From Oscillospiraceae bacterium (GTDB lineage Bacteria; Bacillota; Clostridia; Oscillospirales; Ruminococcaceae), in NCBI GenBank assembly GCA_017512745.1, contig JAFWEV010000046.1:1-64000 (forward strand): a DNA stretch of 64,000 bases, written 5' to 3'. The notes under the pieces are model-generated. The model was not told where the DNA came from. It saw nothing but the letters and a program-made list of their open reading frames with translations, and did not search any database. The translations under genes and the position numbers were made by a program. The first letter of the stretch is position 1. Every line of letters begins with the position of its first letter. Shown one piece after another: positions 59,045 to 64,000 of the stretch.

Positions 59045-59078
59045 TCTGCGGCCGGCAATAAGGACCATCAGACGGTCA

Positions 59079-59111
59079 ACTCTCCGAACAGATGTTTCGG
59101 GGAGTTTTTTT
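59079..59111 (+). terminator. Rho-independent terminator
   Basis: ACTCTCCGAA (59079-59088) pairs with TTCGGGGAGT (59096-59105, one G-T pair) and runs into seven Ts. Confidence 0.9.
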
Positions 59112-59249: not shown

Positions 59250-59296
59250 TTGACCACTATTTTAGGGTGGGGTATATTGGTATTACATGTTAACAT
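59250..59296 (+). promoter_or_regulatory. Promoter and candidate operator of the SIS-YjbQ operon
   Basis: TTGACC (59250-59255) and TATATT (59273-59278) are exactly 17 bases apart. A perfect 10-bp palindrome, ATGTTAACAT (59287-59296), begins 8 bases after the -10 box, over or just past the expected start of transcription, and may bind a regulator. The leader to the first gene is about 85 bases. The rest of 59112-59369 shows no known riboswitch motif, including no thiamine (THI-box) core. Confidence 0.75.
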
Positions 59297-59369: not shown

Positions 59370-60566
59370 GTGGATAAAAACAAATTCACAAGTCCGATCC
59401 GCGAAGAAGTCCTGAGTCTTTTTGAACAGGTCGATGTCACAACGGAGCGCTGTTTTGACAGCGAGAAACTCAAAAATCTCATGTCCATAGCAGAGATCTT
59501 TGACGTCCGCAAGATCATCGTCACTGGTGCGGGAGATTCATGGGTGGCAGGCGGAGCAATGCTACCGGTCATGGAAAAGTACTGCGACGCAATGAGCGTC
59601 CAGGTATACAATCCGATCCAGTTCTCACGCTTTGTTACAAAGGGAGATATAGGTATCGGAGAGCCGAACAGCCCCCTCATCATCGGGATCAGCGTAGGCG
59701 GCGGCACGGCGAGAGTCGCGGAAGTTCTTGAGAAGGCTAACGCGCTCGGAGCATGTTCGATGCTTATCACCAACAATCCCGAATCAAGATGCGCAAAGAT
59801 CGCAAAGAAGGTATTTGACGTAGAGACGCCGGCATTCCCATATGACAAGATGCCGCATCCGAACATCAGATCATACTTTGCATCCCTTACGGCGCTTGCA
59901 GCGGTCTCCTGCAGATTCGGTCATGTCAGAGGACTCCTCCCTCCGACAGCCAAAGAAGAATTCAAGAAGGCTATCAAGGACTATGTAGAGTCCTGGAAGC
60001 CCGTATTCGACGACATCGACGAGCAGATGTTCGATCTCGCAAAGACATGGTGCAGATTCGAGAAATTCGACTTCCTCGGCGTAGAGACACAGCTTTACTC
60101 AACGATCTTCGGACTCGAGAAGTTCTATGAGAGCTGCGGAACGCTCTGCAACTATGACGATCCGGAAGACTGGTGCCATATCGACTATCTGTGCAAGGAT
60201 CCTGAGACTATCGGAACAATATTCCATATCGACAAGGATTCCCCGTCTCTTTCAAGAACGATCGAGACGATCAATTCCGCAGTACATATCGGTCGCCCGA
60301 CTCTCGTGGTCACAAACTCCGATGCGGAGTTCCCGGAAGGAGCGGTAGTATGCCGCATCCCGAAGGCACCGGAGGGTTACGAGTGGGTAACACCTATGAT
60401 GGAATACATCCCGGATGCGCTTCTGGCGGGTTACTGCGCCACACTCGGCGGAAGAAAGAATTTCGTCCAGTACGATCCGATGACGAAGGAATTCGACATG
60501 GAGAGCCTGCACTCCCGGAAGGGTGCCATGACGATCGGTACTTCAGAAGTGCAGATCCATGTTTAA
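59370..60566 (+). CDS. SIS-domain sugar-phosphate enzyme, paralogue 1
   Basis: A 398-residue protein starting at GTG 59370, with AGGAGG 8 bases upstream. The sugar-phosphate site shows VTGAGDSW and GISVGGGTARVAEVL. Glu254 (KFYE) and His270 (PEDWCH) are 16 residues apart, the same spacing as the catalytic Glu/His of GlmS isomerase and of FraB-type deglycases (from memory), so catalysis on a phosphosugar is likely. There is no glutaminase or CBS domain. It is the first gene of a six-gene cluster; the next starts 18 bases later. Codon choice is biased (AAG, ATC, CTC) like the glycolytic genes, suggesting high expression. Confidence 0.85.
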   Translation: MDKNKFTSPIREEVLSLFEQVDVTTERCFDSEKLKNLMSIAEIFDVRKIIVTGAGDSWVAGGAMLPVMEKYCDAMSVQVYNPIQFSRFVTKGDIGIGEPNSPLIIGISVGGGTARVAEVLEKANALGACSMLITNNPESRCAKIAKKVFDVETPAFPYDKMPHPNIRSYFASLTALAAVSCRFGHVRGLLPPTAKEEFKKAIKDYVESWKPVFDDIDEQMFDLAKTWCRFEKFDFLGVETQLYSTIFGLEKFYESCGTLCNYDDPEDWCHIDYLCKDPETIGTIFHIDKDSPSLSRTIETINSAVHIGRPTLVVTNSDAEFPEGAVVCRIPKAPEGYEWVTPMMEYIPDALLAGYCATLGGRKNFVQYDPMTKEFDMESLHSRKGAMTIGTSEVQIHV

Positions 60567-60584
60567 GCCGGAAGGAGCAGCACA

Positions 60585-60989
60585 ATGTTATATACAAGAG
60601 AAATAGAGACAGAGCTCAACGGAGTGCCGTCCATCACGGCGGAAGTCAATGAGATAGTCAAGGAAAGCGGAGTCAAAGAAGGACTCTGCATAGTCACTGT
60701 TCCGGAGGGCACATGCGGACTCTGCATCACATCATTCTGGGACAAGCGCGGACTCTATGATCTCCTCGATGAGATCGGCCGCAATATCCCGAACAGAGTA
60801 AGCTACAAGAACCAGGAATCACCGCATGATGCATCGGGAAGAGTAAAGTCCGCGATGATGGGAACATCCAAAGCGCTCATCATCCACGAGGGCAAACTCA
60901 TCCTTGGTTCAAGCCAGGGACTGGTATTTATGGAATTCGACGGGCCGCGCAAGCGCACGTTCCAGGTCGAGATCGTTGAGAAGGCATAA
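60585..60989 (+). CDS. YjbQ/UPF0047-family protein, paralogue 1 (divergent active site)
   Basis: A 134-residue protein. The family fold is clear from LCIVTVPEGTCGLCIT, GKLILGSSQG and MEFDGPRKR. Canonical members have three conserved His; here their positions read Glu41 (VPEGT), Asn76 (YKNQE) and Arg86 (GRVKSA), so it is unlikely to be active alone. E. coli YjbQ can substitute for thiamine-phosphate synthase, but the family's true reaction is unsettled. AAGGAG lies 8 bases before the ATG. It lies between a SIS gene and a second YjbQ gene. Confidence 0.85.
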   Translation: MLYTREIETELNGVPSITAEVNEIVKESGVKEGLCIVTVPEGTCGLCITSFWDKRGLYDLLDEIGRNIPNRVSYKNQESPHDASGRVKSAMMGTSKALIIHEGKLILGSSQGLVFMEFDGPRKRTFQVEIVEKA

Positions 60990-61001
60990 GGAGGCAGAGA
61001 G

Positions 61002-61403
61002 ATGTATCTTGCAAAAAGATCTGTAAATACAGTTTATATGGGCATGCATGACATCACTGCCGACGTCAGGGAAGAACTCGCGAAGAGCGGGGTGAAGAAC
61101 GGAATACTTCATGTTTCCATGCTTCACTCAACGGCAGGACTCGTAGTATGCGCAAAGGACGAAGCGAGCCGCAGGGACGTTATGGCGGCTATCGAGCGCA
61201 TGGTCCCGACAAGAGTGGATTTCAAACACCGTGAGACTGCATCCGATGCAGGAGGTCACGTCAAGACGGCGCTGACCAACTCACAGATATCCTTTATAGT
61301 CGAAGACGGAAAACTCGCGATCGGCGACGGTCAGGCTATTGTCTTCGCAGAATACGACGGCCCGCGTCCGCGCGCATTCTATGTCAGCGTCATCGAGGGC
61401 TAA
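61002..61403 (+). CDS. YjbQ/UPF0047-family protein, paralogue 2 (canonical histidines)
   Basis: A 133-residue protein starting 12 bases after paralogue 1 behind AAGGAGG. It retains His42 (MLHSTAGL), His76 (FKHRE) and His86 (GGHVKTA), plus the GKLAIGDGQ and FAEYDGPRPR blocks, so it is the likely catalytic member of the three. Its function in this pathway is unknown. Confidence 0.87.
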   Translation: MYLAKRSVNTVYMGMHDITADVREELAKSGVKNGILHVSMLHSTAGLVVCAKDEASRRDVMAAIERMVPTRVDFKHRETASDAGGHVKTALTNSQISFIVEDGKLAIGDGQAIVFAEYDGPRPRAFYVSVIEG

Positions 61404-61421
61404 AGAGAAAGGACAGAAACT

Positions 61422-62588
61422 ATGGATAAAGAAGCCAGATTACATTCTCTGAAACGCCAGTGTTTCAGTATCCCGGACCTCTGCGAGACCCAGATAGCAG
61501 GTGTAAAGAAGGGACTTGAGAACACGATCCCGAAGGATGTTCTCAAGAATATCCGCCGCGTCATCATCACAGGATGCGGAGACTCCTATCTTGCAGGCAT
61601 AATCGCGGTTCCGGCTTTCAAGCACTATGTCAGCGCGTTCGGAAATCACTTCTCCTGCGAGCGCTGCATAGATGTAGCAAGAAATTATCCCTTTGATCCG
61701 AAATATGCGGCAGCAACACTTGTTGTTGCGGTCAGCGCATCGGGCGGACCGAAGAGAGTCACGGAAGCTCTGAAGCGCGCAAACGCAAAGGGATGCCACA
61801 CTCTCGTAGTCACAAACAGACCCGAGTCTCTTGCGGCCCAGGAGGCCAAATACAACATCATAGTGGGAACTCCCGCAACGGATTTCTCCACTCCGGGACT
61901 CAGAAACTACTACGCTTCCCTCATGGGACTCTTTGCGCTCGCGGCATATATGGGCGAGGCAAAGGGACTCTCTCCCGAAGGTTCCGTCGATAAGCTGTTC
62001 GATGCCATAAGAGAGTTCACAAAGGCATACGAAGAGAAGTTTGACTATATGGACAAGATCGCTCTCGATGTCGCCACCAAGTGGAAGGATCTCGACAAGT
62101 TCGAGAGTATCGGCGACGACGTCAACTGGGCAACGGCATACTTTATCGGAGCAAAATTCGTGGAGTGCGCAGGTCTCATGTGCCCGACGATGGACTCCGA
62201 GGACTGGTGCCATGTCAACTACTTCGCGCATGATTCTAGATATATCGGAACGATAGTCGTAGCCGAGAAGGATGCTCCGGACAGATCCAGAGTCTGTGAG
62301 ACGGTCCATCAGGCGAGAAACGTCGCGCGTCCGACATTCGTTACGGCAGACTGCCCGATCGAAGAGTTCGGGATCACCGATGAGGGCGTGGATTACTGCG
62401 AAGTACCGAAAGCACCCGAAGGATTCGCATTCCTTTCCCCAATGCTCAATTACATCCCCGGTTCACTCGTAGCAGACTACATTGCGGACTTCTGCGATGA
62501 GGTTTACTTCAGAAAACCGGATGCGCCGCAGAACAACACACCGATCGGAACGACGATCAGCACAAGCAATATCGAGGTGGTAGACTGA
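61422..62588 (+). CDS. SIS-domain sugar-phosphate enzyme, paralogue 2
   Basis: A 388-residue paralogue of the first SIS protein in the operon. It shows ITGCGDSYLAGI, VSASGGPKRVTEAL, and the same Glu/His pair: Glu248 (KFVE) and His264 (SEDWCH), 16 apart. Shared segments (EDWCH, VPKAPEGF-like ending, TIGTS-like tail) show the two arose by duplication. SIS enzymes are dimers, so a heterodimer is possible. AAAGGA precedes the ATG. The TGA overlaps the ATG of the third YjbQ gene, giving translational coupling. Confidence 0.86.
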   Translation: MDKEARLHSLKRQCFSIPDLCETQIAGVKKGLENTIPKDVLKNIRRVIITGCGDSYLAGIIAVPAFKHYVSAFGNHFSCERCIDVARNYPFDPKYAAATLVVAVSASGGPKRVTEALKRANAKGCHTLVVTNRPESLAAQEAKYNIIVGTPATDFSTPGLRNYYASLMGLFALAAYMGEAKGLSPEGSVDKLFDAIREFTKAYEEKFDYMDKIALDVATKWKDLDKFESIGDDVNWATAYFIGAKFVECAGLMCPTMDSEDWCHVNYFAHDSRYIGTIVVAEKDAPDRSRVCETVHQARNVARPTFVTADCPIEEFGITDEGVDYCEVPKAPEGFAFLSPMLNYIPGSLVADYIADFCDEVYFRKPDAPQNNTPIGTTISTSNIEVVD

Positions 62589-62983
62589 TGATCACTAAGA
62601 AGATATCAACAGGAAAAGCCGGACTGTTCGGCATCACCGACGAGGTTAAAGAGGCAGTAAAGGCCAGCGGCATAAAGGAAGGACTCTGCGTAGTCTATGT
62701 TCCCGCTGAGGACTGCGGACTGATGGTCACATCTCTTTCTGATGAGAAGATCCATGAGGACATCTTTGACGATTATGAGCGCATTTTCCCCGCACACAAC
62801 AAACAGTTCTTCAAGGGAGACCTCGATGAGGGATCCGCGCACGCGAAGAGCGCGGTCACGGGTGTATCTGTAGACGTGGCGATCCATGACGGAGAGGCTG
62901 TTTTCGGGGAAGGTCAGGGGCTGTTCCTTGCGGACTTTGACGGACTCAAAGCGGAACGCGAATATTTCGTGAAGTGCATCTGA
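62588..62983 (+). CDS. YjbQ/UPF0047-family protein, paralogue 3 (partly divergent active site)
   Basis: A 131-residue protein, start overlapping the preceding stop (TGATG) with GAGGTGG upstream. The family blocks are LCVVYVPAEDCGLMVT, EAVFGEGQG and LADFDGL. Of the three conserved His only His85 (SAHAKSA) remains; the first reads Ala40 and the second lies in FFKGD. It could share a mixed active site with the canonical paralogue. Confidence 0.84.
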   Translation: MITKKISTGKAGLFGITDEVKEAVKASGIKEGLCVVYVPAEDCGLMVTSLSDEKIHEDIFDDYERIFPAHNKQFFKGDLDEGSAHAKSAVTGVSVDVAIHDGEAVFGEGQGLFLADFDGLKAEREYFVKCI

Positions 62984-63003
62984 CCGGTCGTACGGTAAAA
63001 ACC

Positions 63004-63029
63004 GAGGACCGGCGATAAAGCCGGTCCTC
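63004..63029 (+). terminator. Intercistronic hairpin (weak terminator or processing site)
   Basis: A perfect 10-bp stem, GAGGACCGGC (63004-63013) with 63020-63029, has a 6-base loop and is followed by TTGATTT. With such a broken T tract it probably reduces rather than stops transcription into the kinase-like gene. Confidence 0.6.
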
Positions 63030-63051
63030 TTGATTTAAAAGGAAAAAACAT

Positions 63052-64000
63052 ATGGGTTATGAATATTTGGCATGCGGAAACGTCATGCTCGATTCCGTGA
63101 GATTCCCCGGTGAGACTACAAGGTCTCAGGAGAATATAGGCGGACCGTCTACTTTTGCCTATTCCGGTATAAAACTCTATACGGATAAGGTCATGCAGGC
63201 GAGTCATGTCGGCGAGGACTACCACACTCTCTTTGATCCGTGGATGGAGAAGAACGGTGTGGAGGGAAAGGGGTTCGACGTCAAGTGCGACCACTGTAAC
63301 CACTCCTGGCTCCTATTCAAGGATGACGGAACATATGAGAGAGATCCCGAGCAGGTCTACTTCAGAGATGACTGGATGCAGGATTTCGGATATATGAAGA
63401 TAAGCCCTGAGGAGATAGGATACTGGACGAGCCGCGAGCCCATAAAGGGCATATATCTTGCCCAGAATGTCGATTACACTTTCTGGAACAAGCTTCATGA
63501 GATCCAGAAGAGAGACGGATTCAAAATGATGTGGGAGATGGAGTCTCCGAGTTCATATTTCAAGTTCATGGACGCGGTGATGAACGCCACAAAGACGGCG
63601 AGTCTGTTCTCCATCAATATTCAAGAAGCGCAGACGCTTTTCAACGTACAGACTGATGAAGATGTCATTGCGGCTCTTCAGAAGATGCCGTTTGAGTATA
63701 CTCTCTTCAGAGTCGGCGAGAGAGGTGCATACAGCGTAACTCCGACAGAGTGCTATTATCTGCCCCCTGCACCTGGACCGGTAGTGGATCCGACAGGTTG
63801 CGGAAACACATCCACAGGTTCCGCACTGTACGCATGGTGCGAAGGACATGACGCCCTTATGACAGGCATCATGGCAAATGTCGGATCTTCCATGAATATC
63901 CGCCAGTACGGGATAATCCCGGATTTCAAGGAGGTAAGAGACGAGGCGTTTGAACTCGCCAAACAGCTTTACAGTGAGTACAGCGTAAAATACGGAATAA
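63052..64000 (+). CDS. PfkB-family carbohydrate kinase-like protein, 3' partial
   Basis: At least 316 residues, still open at the right edge. Ribokinase-fold landmarks are IGGPSTFAYSGIKL (the substrate-side Gly pair) and VVDPTGCGNTSTGS, which aligns with the DTxGAGD anion-hole motif of PfkB kinases. The catalytic Asp of GAGD is replaced by Asn252; the fungal MAK32-like branch has a similar GGGN (from memory). A Cys pair (KCDHCNH) near 82-87 may bind metal. It starts 69 bases after the last YjbQ gene, behind AAAGGA. In Amadori-product pathways a PfkB kinase and a SIS deglycase act in sequence, which suggests but does not prove a similar pairing. Confidence 0.82.
   Translation, partial: MGYEYLACGNVMLDSVRFPGETTRSQENIGGPSTFAYSGIKLYTDKVMQASHVGEDYHTLFDPWMEKNGVEGKGFDVKCDHCNHSWLLFKDDGTYERDPEQVYFRDDWMQDFGYMKISPEEIGYWTSREPIKGIYLAQNVDYTFWNKLHEIQKRDGFKMMWEMESPSSYFKFMDAVMNATKTASLFSINIQEAQTLFNVQTDEDVIAALQKMPFEYTLFRVGERGAYSVTPTECYYLPPAPGPVVDPTGCGNTSTGSALYAWCEGHDALMTGIMANVGSSMNIRQYGIIPDFKEVRDEAFELAKQLYSEYSVKYGI

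Follow-up and report, generated by a model that had tools for sequence, protein, structure and literature searches.

A conserved SIS-YjbQ gene unit as a candidate hetero-oligomeric sugar-phosphate enzyme in bacterial riboside breakdown

In GlmS (glucosamine-6-phosphate synthase), whose C-terminal half is the isomerase domain that the SIS proteins described here resemble, each active site of the isomerase takes its histidine from the neighbouring subunit. YjbQ (UPF0047) is an orphan family, widespread in bacteria and archaea, for which a weak side activity is reported. Nucleoside salvage operons, comprising a PnrA/BMP importer, nucleoside hydrolase (IunH), nucleoside phosphorylase (PNP) and ribokinase, contain, to our knowledge, neither SIS nor YjbQ, and a literature search found no such operon with either. 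The deglycase operons of FraB and FrlB combine SIS with a PfkB-fold protein and have no YjbQ, and both deglycases are described as homodimers (PMC9609667). Here we analyse a 64,000-nucleotide stretch of an Oscillospiraceae bacterium (the window; C104:1-64000 of host genome G000, a 2.52-Mb draft in 108 contigs, about 90% complete), which carries the six-gene cluster SIS1, YjbQ1, YjbQ2, SIS2, YjbQ3 and PfkB. That SIS and YjbQ together make one conserved, so far undescribed functional unit is well supported, and the locus would be one copy of a patchily spread catabolic module with the SIS-YjbQ two-gene unit as its core.

From 84,980 species genomes, a SIS profile used alone gathered 74 loci, and the counts given below, which use profiles built for this analysis, cover 76 loci and 124 SIS genes. 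A YjbQ gene lies no more than 100 b downstream of 87 of the 124 SIS genes, in 53 of the 76 loci, at a median gap of 11 b, and 97 of the 99 YjbQ open reading frames (ORFs) in these loci have a SIS gene at a distance of 1 kb at most. The loci belong to Lachnospiraceae, Oscillospiraceae, Erysipelotrichaceae, Paenibacillus, Bacillus and Spirochaetes, and the pairing of SIS followed by YjbQ spans Clostridia, Erysipelotrichia, Bacilli and Spirochaetes. The SIS subfamily is rare, the host genome being its sole bearer among 291 genomes of the class (E ≤ 1e-60). In the host genome itself, YjbQ has 11 matches and this SIS subfamily about 16 genes, including further interleaved loci with the order PfkB-SIS-YjbQ-SIS-YjbQ (C81 and C61) and SIS-YjbQ-SIS-YjbQ-YjbQ (C32). 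Three forms of the module recur: SIS-YjbQ alone (SY), frequently accompanied by genes for a CUT1-type ABC importer and a GntR regulator; SYSY, mostly with PfkB; and SYYSY, the type in the window. A preliminary description of the window had proposed YjbQ as an integral partner of SIS, and the adjacency behind that proposal recurs, beyond what chance would give, in the host genome and in related and distant genomes; it thus passed the test of conservation that the description itself had set. Its statement that no system of this composition is described also agrees with the literature, in whose titles and abstracts, those on YjbQ (UPF0047) and on SIS with ADP-ribosylglycohydrolase or nucleoside hydrolase included, we found no such system.

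In the window, ORFs, Pfam matches and the SIS1 structural model agree on all six genes, on one strand and tightly spaced, as had been proposed. The features of the locus are as follows (YjbQ residue numbers are those of the canonical copy on C1).

59078..59106, plus strand: terminator-like hairpin closing the upstream Gfo/Idh/MocA gene (scan; 11 pairs, then a T run)
59250..59278, plus strand: promoter-like TTGACC-17-TATATT, 5′ of SIS1 (10/12 match, best in the region)
59370..60566, plus strand: SIS1, 398 aa, GlmS-isomerase-domain-like, K251/E254/H270 kept
60585..60989, plus strand: YjbQ1, 134 aa, histidines of the core substituted (E43, N78, R87)
61002..61403, plus strand: YjbQ2, 133 aa, intact (H43, H78, H87, K89, E118, D120, R123)
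61422..62588, plus strand: SIS2, 388 aa, in a clade separate from SIS1, Glu/His pair kept
62588..62983, plus strand: YjbQ3, 131 aa, degenerate (A43, F78, K123), start overlapping the SIS2 stop (TGATG)
63004..63029, plus strand: terminator-like hairpin between YjbQ3 and PfkB (10 pairs, 8 of them G-C)
63052..64000, plus strand: PfkB-fold protein, 317 aa, DPTGCGN in place of D-T-x-G-A-G-D (stop beyond the window, at C104:64005)

The proposal of a single operon holds for the first five genes, which are separated by 18, 12, 18 and −1 b; it is firm for these only, because the hairpin at 63004-63029, within a gap of 68 b, splits YjbQ3 from PfkB, and PfkB may be transcribed less than the five-gene part or separately. 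Promoter-like matches in the region are about as many as the mean of shuffled sequences, TTGACC-17-TATATT being the top one, and Shine-Dalgarno-like stretches precede most starts in the cluster. The contig runs on to position 69,826, completing PfkB and adding two same-strand IunH genes further downstream. The effective number of codons (Nc) from SIS1 to PfkB is 41.4, 37.5, 48.8, 41.2, 36.5 and 45.7, against a window median of 50.2, bearing out the biased codons noted earlier. In particular, SIS1, SIS2, YjbQ1 and YjbQ3 come close in codon bias to PGK and TPI, which, named by eye, are the only window ORFs of at least 150 aa with a stronger bias than both SIS genes. Such a pattern would suit a major catabolic pathway better than one serving a vitamin or repair.

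The AlphaFold2 model of SIS1 (predicted local distance difference test, pLDDT, 95.5) has two SIS folds in one chain, and its residues 4-392 match the isomerase domain of GlmS with a Z score of 39.5 (346 residues aligned, 2.6 Å). The 3g68-type SIS proteins are similarly close (Z 39), whereas tagatose-6-phosphate isomerase-type proteins (Z 33-36), FrlB (Z 29) and FraB (Z 26) rank lower. Both SIS1 and SIS2 have the Glu/His pair at spacing 16, as first noticed in the preliminary description, aligned to the Glu/His of the GlmS isomerase domain; specifically, SIS1 K251/E254/H270 correspond to GlmS K485/E488/H504, the trio is found in SIS2 too, and the GlmS-type Lys/Glu/His is conserved in 146-147 of 152 aligned SIS sequences. 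In Pfam, SIS2 matches PF01380 (E 8e-10), while SIS1 scores barely below the cut-off (24.9 versus 25 bits). The curated NCBIfam FrlB model NF008481 gives SIS2 only E 0.086 and 12 of 430 bits, with SIS1 unlisted. SIS1 and SIS2 are filed as GlmS-isomerase-type SIS proteins, not as FraB/FrlB deglycases. They share with the isomerase domain of GlmS the full double-SIS fold and the conserved trio, but differ from GlmS in lacking a glutaminase domain, in an identity of 16-19%, in forming two non-identical chains and in being paired with YjbQ.

In a quick tree of the SIS proteins, with Shimodaira-Hasegawa-like approximate likelihood ratio test support only, most SIS proteins of the SY form make one clade (99), the first and second SIS of SYSY make two clades (99 and 100), and those of SYYSY make two others (98 and 100). 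The separation of first and second SIS into different clades makes the two chains of a module long-standing, unlike partners and not the products of recent copying. Complementary loss of the Glu/His pair is seen in two SIS pairs, one in G000:C43 (L016:6373-8618) and one in G017:C26 (L113:6711-9025): chain one keeps Glu and has Arg for His, and chain two has Lys for Glu and keeps His. Since GlmS draws its His from the neighbouring subunit, these pairs would have a complete site only as a heterodimer.

YjbQ1-3 match PF01894 with E values of 6e-27, 4e-29 and 1e-23 (84-102 bits versus a cut-off of 27) and are filed in the YjbQ family. The model of YjbQ2 (pLDDT 92.3) matches 1xbf (template modelling score, TM, 0.92) and 1vph (TM 0.95), and YjbQ2 shares its fold, at TM values of up to 0.95, and its core residues with the solved YjbQ/UPF0047 members 1xbf, 1vmh, 2p6c and 1vmj; outside the YjbQ family, the fold search returned only weak matches (TM ≤ 0.4) and no hint of a mechanism. 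The solved members are structural-genomics proteins; in the module, unlike them, several unequal copies share an operon with SIS. Within the window, the conserved His/Lys/Glu/Asp/Arg core is whole in YjbQ2, and core residues are lost in YjbQ1 and YjbQ3. With an intact core defined as H43, H87, K89, E/D118, D120 and R123, 20 of 21 single-YjbQ modules have an intact copy, the exception (L056) being cut by a contig end. All 35 multi-YjbQ modules have at least one intact copy and 25 of them at least one degenerate copy; label shuffling reached 35 in 103 of 20,000 trials, a figure that still contains kinship among loci. YjbQ1 and YjbQ2 are fused into a protein of ~270 aa in 13 genomes of the SYYSY form (14 entries, one locus being counted twice), and no SIS-YjbQ gene fusion was found among the loci. 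The NEN-D and WQ stretches set the SIS-linked YjbQ proteins as a group apart from the canonical copy. The second YjbQ of the C61 module (L011:7550-7897) is cut short at its C-terminal end and is possibly decaying.

The PfkB-fold protein of the window matches PF00294 (E 5e-14, 52.8 bits versus a cut-off of 25.8) and, among solved structures, has only a weak match, to 3kd6 (E 6e-4). In characterised PfkB kinases, the last Asp of D-T-x-G-A-G-D is the catalytic base; the window protein has Asn at this position. In an alignment of 90 PfkB-type proteins from module loci, this Asn is present in each of the 63 close subfamily members and in 12 of 15 further ones, whereas all 12 distant PfkB proteins from the same loci keep the Asp. 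Because of this replacement, the module PfkB is unlikely to be an ordinary kinase and is not filed as an active one, and the subfamily is possibly a non-kinase one; its initial assignment as the default sugar kinase of the route was rejected after the motif check. In L054-like loci of Erysipelotrichaceae, a second PfkB with a normal motif adjoins genes for a PRAI-like isomerase and IunH in the same stretch. Tandem arrays of 3-5 unequal genes of the PfkB subfamily occur at G017:C14:13940-18684, G017:C3:190-5081 and G000:C1:42493-45337, the last followed by three nucleoside hydrolases.

Neighbouring genes, named by Pfam and NCBIfam on cluster representatives and then mapped across all loci, place the module in a riboside setting. 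In the 53 YjbQ loci, PfkB occurs in 40, IunH in 18, a PnrA/BMP-type importer in 14, ADP-ribosylglycohydrolase (ARH) in 14, nucleoside phosphorylase (PNP/UP) in 9, nucleoside deoxyribosyltransferase (NDT) in 7 and a PRAI-like isomerase in 7, and 36 of the loci have at least one riboside gene (IunH, BMP, ARH, PNP/UP, NDT or PRAI). The accessory genes of described nucleoside salvage operons adjoin the module as well; the Christensenella locus L080, for example, has the order importer, ARH, PfkB, PNP/UP, SIS, 5-FTHF-ligase-like gene, YjbQ, IunH, NDT. Of the 41 relatives compared, just two, G000 and G017, carry multiple copies of the SIS subfamily, and these two alone are expanded in YjbQ (11 and 6 copies; others 0-2), in the PfkB subfamily (17 and 14; others 0-1) and in IunH (32 and 21; the other 39 hold 0-3). 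IunH is present in 30 of 34 genomes bearing the SIS family, with up to 52 copies in Neobittarella massiliensis (L044/L047) and 32 in Schneewindia gallinarum. Most SY-only genomes have 1-7 copies, so the large IunH expansion tracks the multi-subunit forms, although not every one of them. As the setting that the SIS-YjbQ unit serves, catabolism of ribosides or nucleosides has the best support.

Taken with the gene content, conservation, folds and residue patterns, this neighbourhood and co-expansion lead us to infer a physical complex, a substrate class and a reaction. A hetero-oligomeric sugar-phosphate isomerase or deglycase with YjbQ as an integral part, acting in riboside breakdown, is the reading we prefer, at about even confidence. 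The multi-subunit assembly first proposed from the window gains support from the tandem YjbQ fusions, the separate SIS1 and SIS2 clades and the complementary active-site loss in two SIS pairs, and the formation of a physical hetero-oligomer by the SIS and YjbQ products is supported indirectly. Duplication of the SIS-YjbQ unit would have given the hetero-oligomeric SYSY and SYYSY forms. The two SIS chains would most likely make a GlmS-isomerase-like heterodimer in which one chain supplies the Glu and its partner the His of each site. Fold and residues point to an isomerase or deglycase step of enediol type, with a phosphorylated sugar or sugar-amine as substrate and with YjbQ carrying out a linked step. 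The YjbQ chains would either belong to this enzyme or have its substrate or product as their target, with one catalytic copy per module and the degenerate copies structural; most economically, the catalytic step could be the opening of a ring, the exchange of anomers or the hydrolysis of a C-N bond. The PfkB-fold protein, having lost its catalytic Asp, would probably serve as a substrate-binding or otherwise re-purposed partner, and the phosphate may come from another kinase or from the imported compound. The input would most likely be the pentose moiety of N-ribosides taken up by the cell (nucleosides and related compounds), with nucleoside hydrolases, ADP-ribosylglycohydrolases, nucleoside phosphorylases or deoxyribosyltransferases releasing or preparing it.

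Several observations weigh against this reading. Seventeen of the 53 YjbQ loci have no riboside gene in the DNA covered. The host copies L010 and L011 adjoin genes that by eye resemble glycoside hydrolases, not nucleosidases, so the substrate class may extend beyond ribosides. Moreover, 13 modules are SIS pairs without a neighbouring YjbQ (SS), and YjbQ is absent altogether from two genomes carrying HAD-SIS fusions, so that it is dispensable in some branches. The complementary pairs of L016 and L113 likewise have no adjacent YjbQ, and their evidence is limited to the SIS heterodimer and does not extend to YjbQ.

The alternative that survives best is a plain pentose route, in which pentose 5-phosphate, made by a kinase, is converted by the SIS pair as a pentose-phosphate isomerase, with YjbQ as a mutarotase-like helper in an RbsD-like role. 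Ribose would be released by the nucleoside hydrolases, aldose-ketose phosphate isomerases occur among SIS proteins, a DeoC-family aldolase gene precedes PfkB-SIS-YjbQ in L057, and the host genome has no RpiA match. However, RpiB is present in the host genome and in G017, as in nearly all relatives, so that such an isomerase is not missing, and a missing ribose-5-phosphate isomerase was rejected as the reason for SIS. Furthermore, the route presupposes a kinase where the module PfkB lacks the catalytic Asp, and it leaves the many different modules in one genome unexplained. We regard it as possible but unlikely.

An Amadori route, in which a ketosamine phosphorylated by PfkB is deglycated by the SIS pair in the manner of FrlB/FraB and YjbQ hydrolyses or equilibrates the glycosylamine product, is more doubtful still. 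The SIS and PfkB content, the Glu/His pair, the presence of FrlB and FraB among the fold matches and the PRAI-like gene (an Amadori-type isomerase) in 7 loci agree with it, and likeness to the deglycase operons had led the preliminary description to fructoselysine and fructose-asparagine breakdown. That link found no specific support: GlmS and the 3g68-type proteins are much closer to SIS1, the FrlB model scores SIS2 at E 0.09 only, the neighbours are nucleosidases and nucleoside-type importers, the analogy with a SIS-plus-kinase operon is weak given a PfkB with Asn for its catalytic Asp, and no PfkB is seen in 13 of the 53 YjbQ loci.

A loose neighbourhood, with SIS and YjbQ in separate pathways and held together by horizontal transfer, would suit the patchy spread and the SIS pairs without YjbQ, but we consider it improbable, since the interleaved order is kept across several architectures and phyla, the genes co-expand genome by genome, and intact and degenerate YjbQ copies recur together. 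A thiamine route, with YjbQ as a thiamin phosphate synthase and the cluster serving thiamine or another vitamin, would draw on the NCBIfam family name 'secondary thiamine-phosphate synthase', the activity reported by Morett et al. 2008, as cited in PMC4731195, and the ECF-transporter-like genes of the single locus L091, but the departure of the SIS-linked YjbQ proteins at NEN-D and WQ, a codon bias near PGK and TPI that does not suit a vitamin route, and module neighbourhoods that point to ribosides and nucleosides, with no thiamine gene recognised in them, leave the thiamine link, also raised earlier, with no specific support and very little probability.

Going beyond the preferred riboside-linked enzyme, we tentatively suggest, as a bolder proposal that may well not hold in full, that SIS-YjbQ is a previously unrecognised two-component enzyme, grown to 4-5 unequal subunits and joined by an ex-kinase PfkB, and that it gives YjbQ its first physiological role as a catalytic step of an undescribed riboside route, in bacteria living largely on nucleosides with 20-50 nucleoside hydrolases. 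A conserved GlmS-like isomerase partner and a nucleoside-catabolism setting in cultured species make the question of the role of YjbQ directly testable. The Asn-for-Asp PfkB subfamily, at 14-17 copies in two genomes, raises a second question, and the IunH numbers (32 in the host, 52 in Neobittarella massiliensis) suggest an overlooked nucleoside-feeding life style among Clostridia.

Some loci carry further genes beside SIS or YjbQ. The Lachnospiraceae loci L084 and L086-L090 have SIS ORFs of ~640 aa, a HAD (Hydrolase_3)-SIS fusion where examined (L086), which adjoin ADP-ribosylglycohydrolase and a xylose-isomerase-like gene; the idea of HAD as a YjbQ substitute is weakened by L074, where HAD is a separate gene beside SIS-YjbQ. 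In the Enterococcaceae locus L091:458-5184, YjbQ and SIS lie at opposite ends of genes that by eye resemble an energy-coupling factor (ECF)-type transporter, of which the S-component-like gene had no Pfam match at 0.001. A radical-SAM-type gene (Pfam) lies directly 3′ of YjbQ in Hungatella (L072:8491-9336), and a gene similar to it in look takes the same position in Sphaerochaetaceae (L085:8547-9317).

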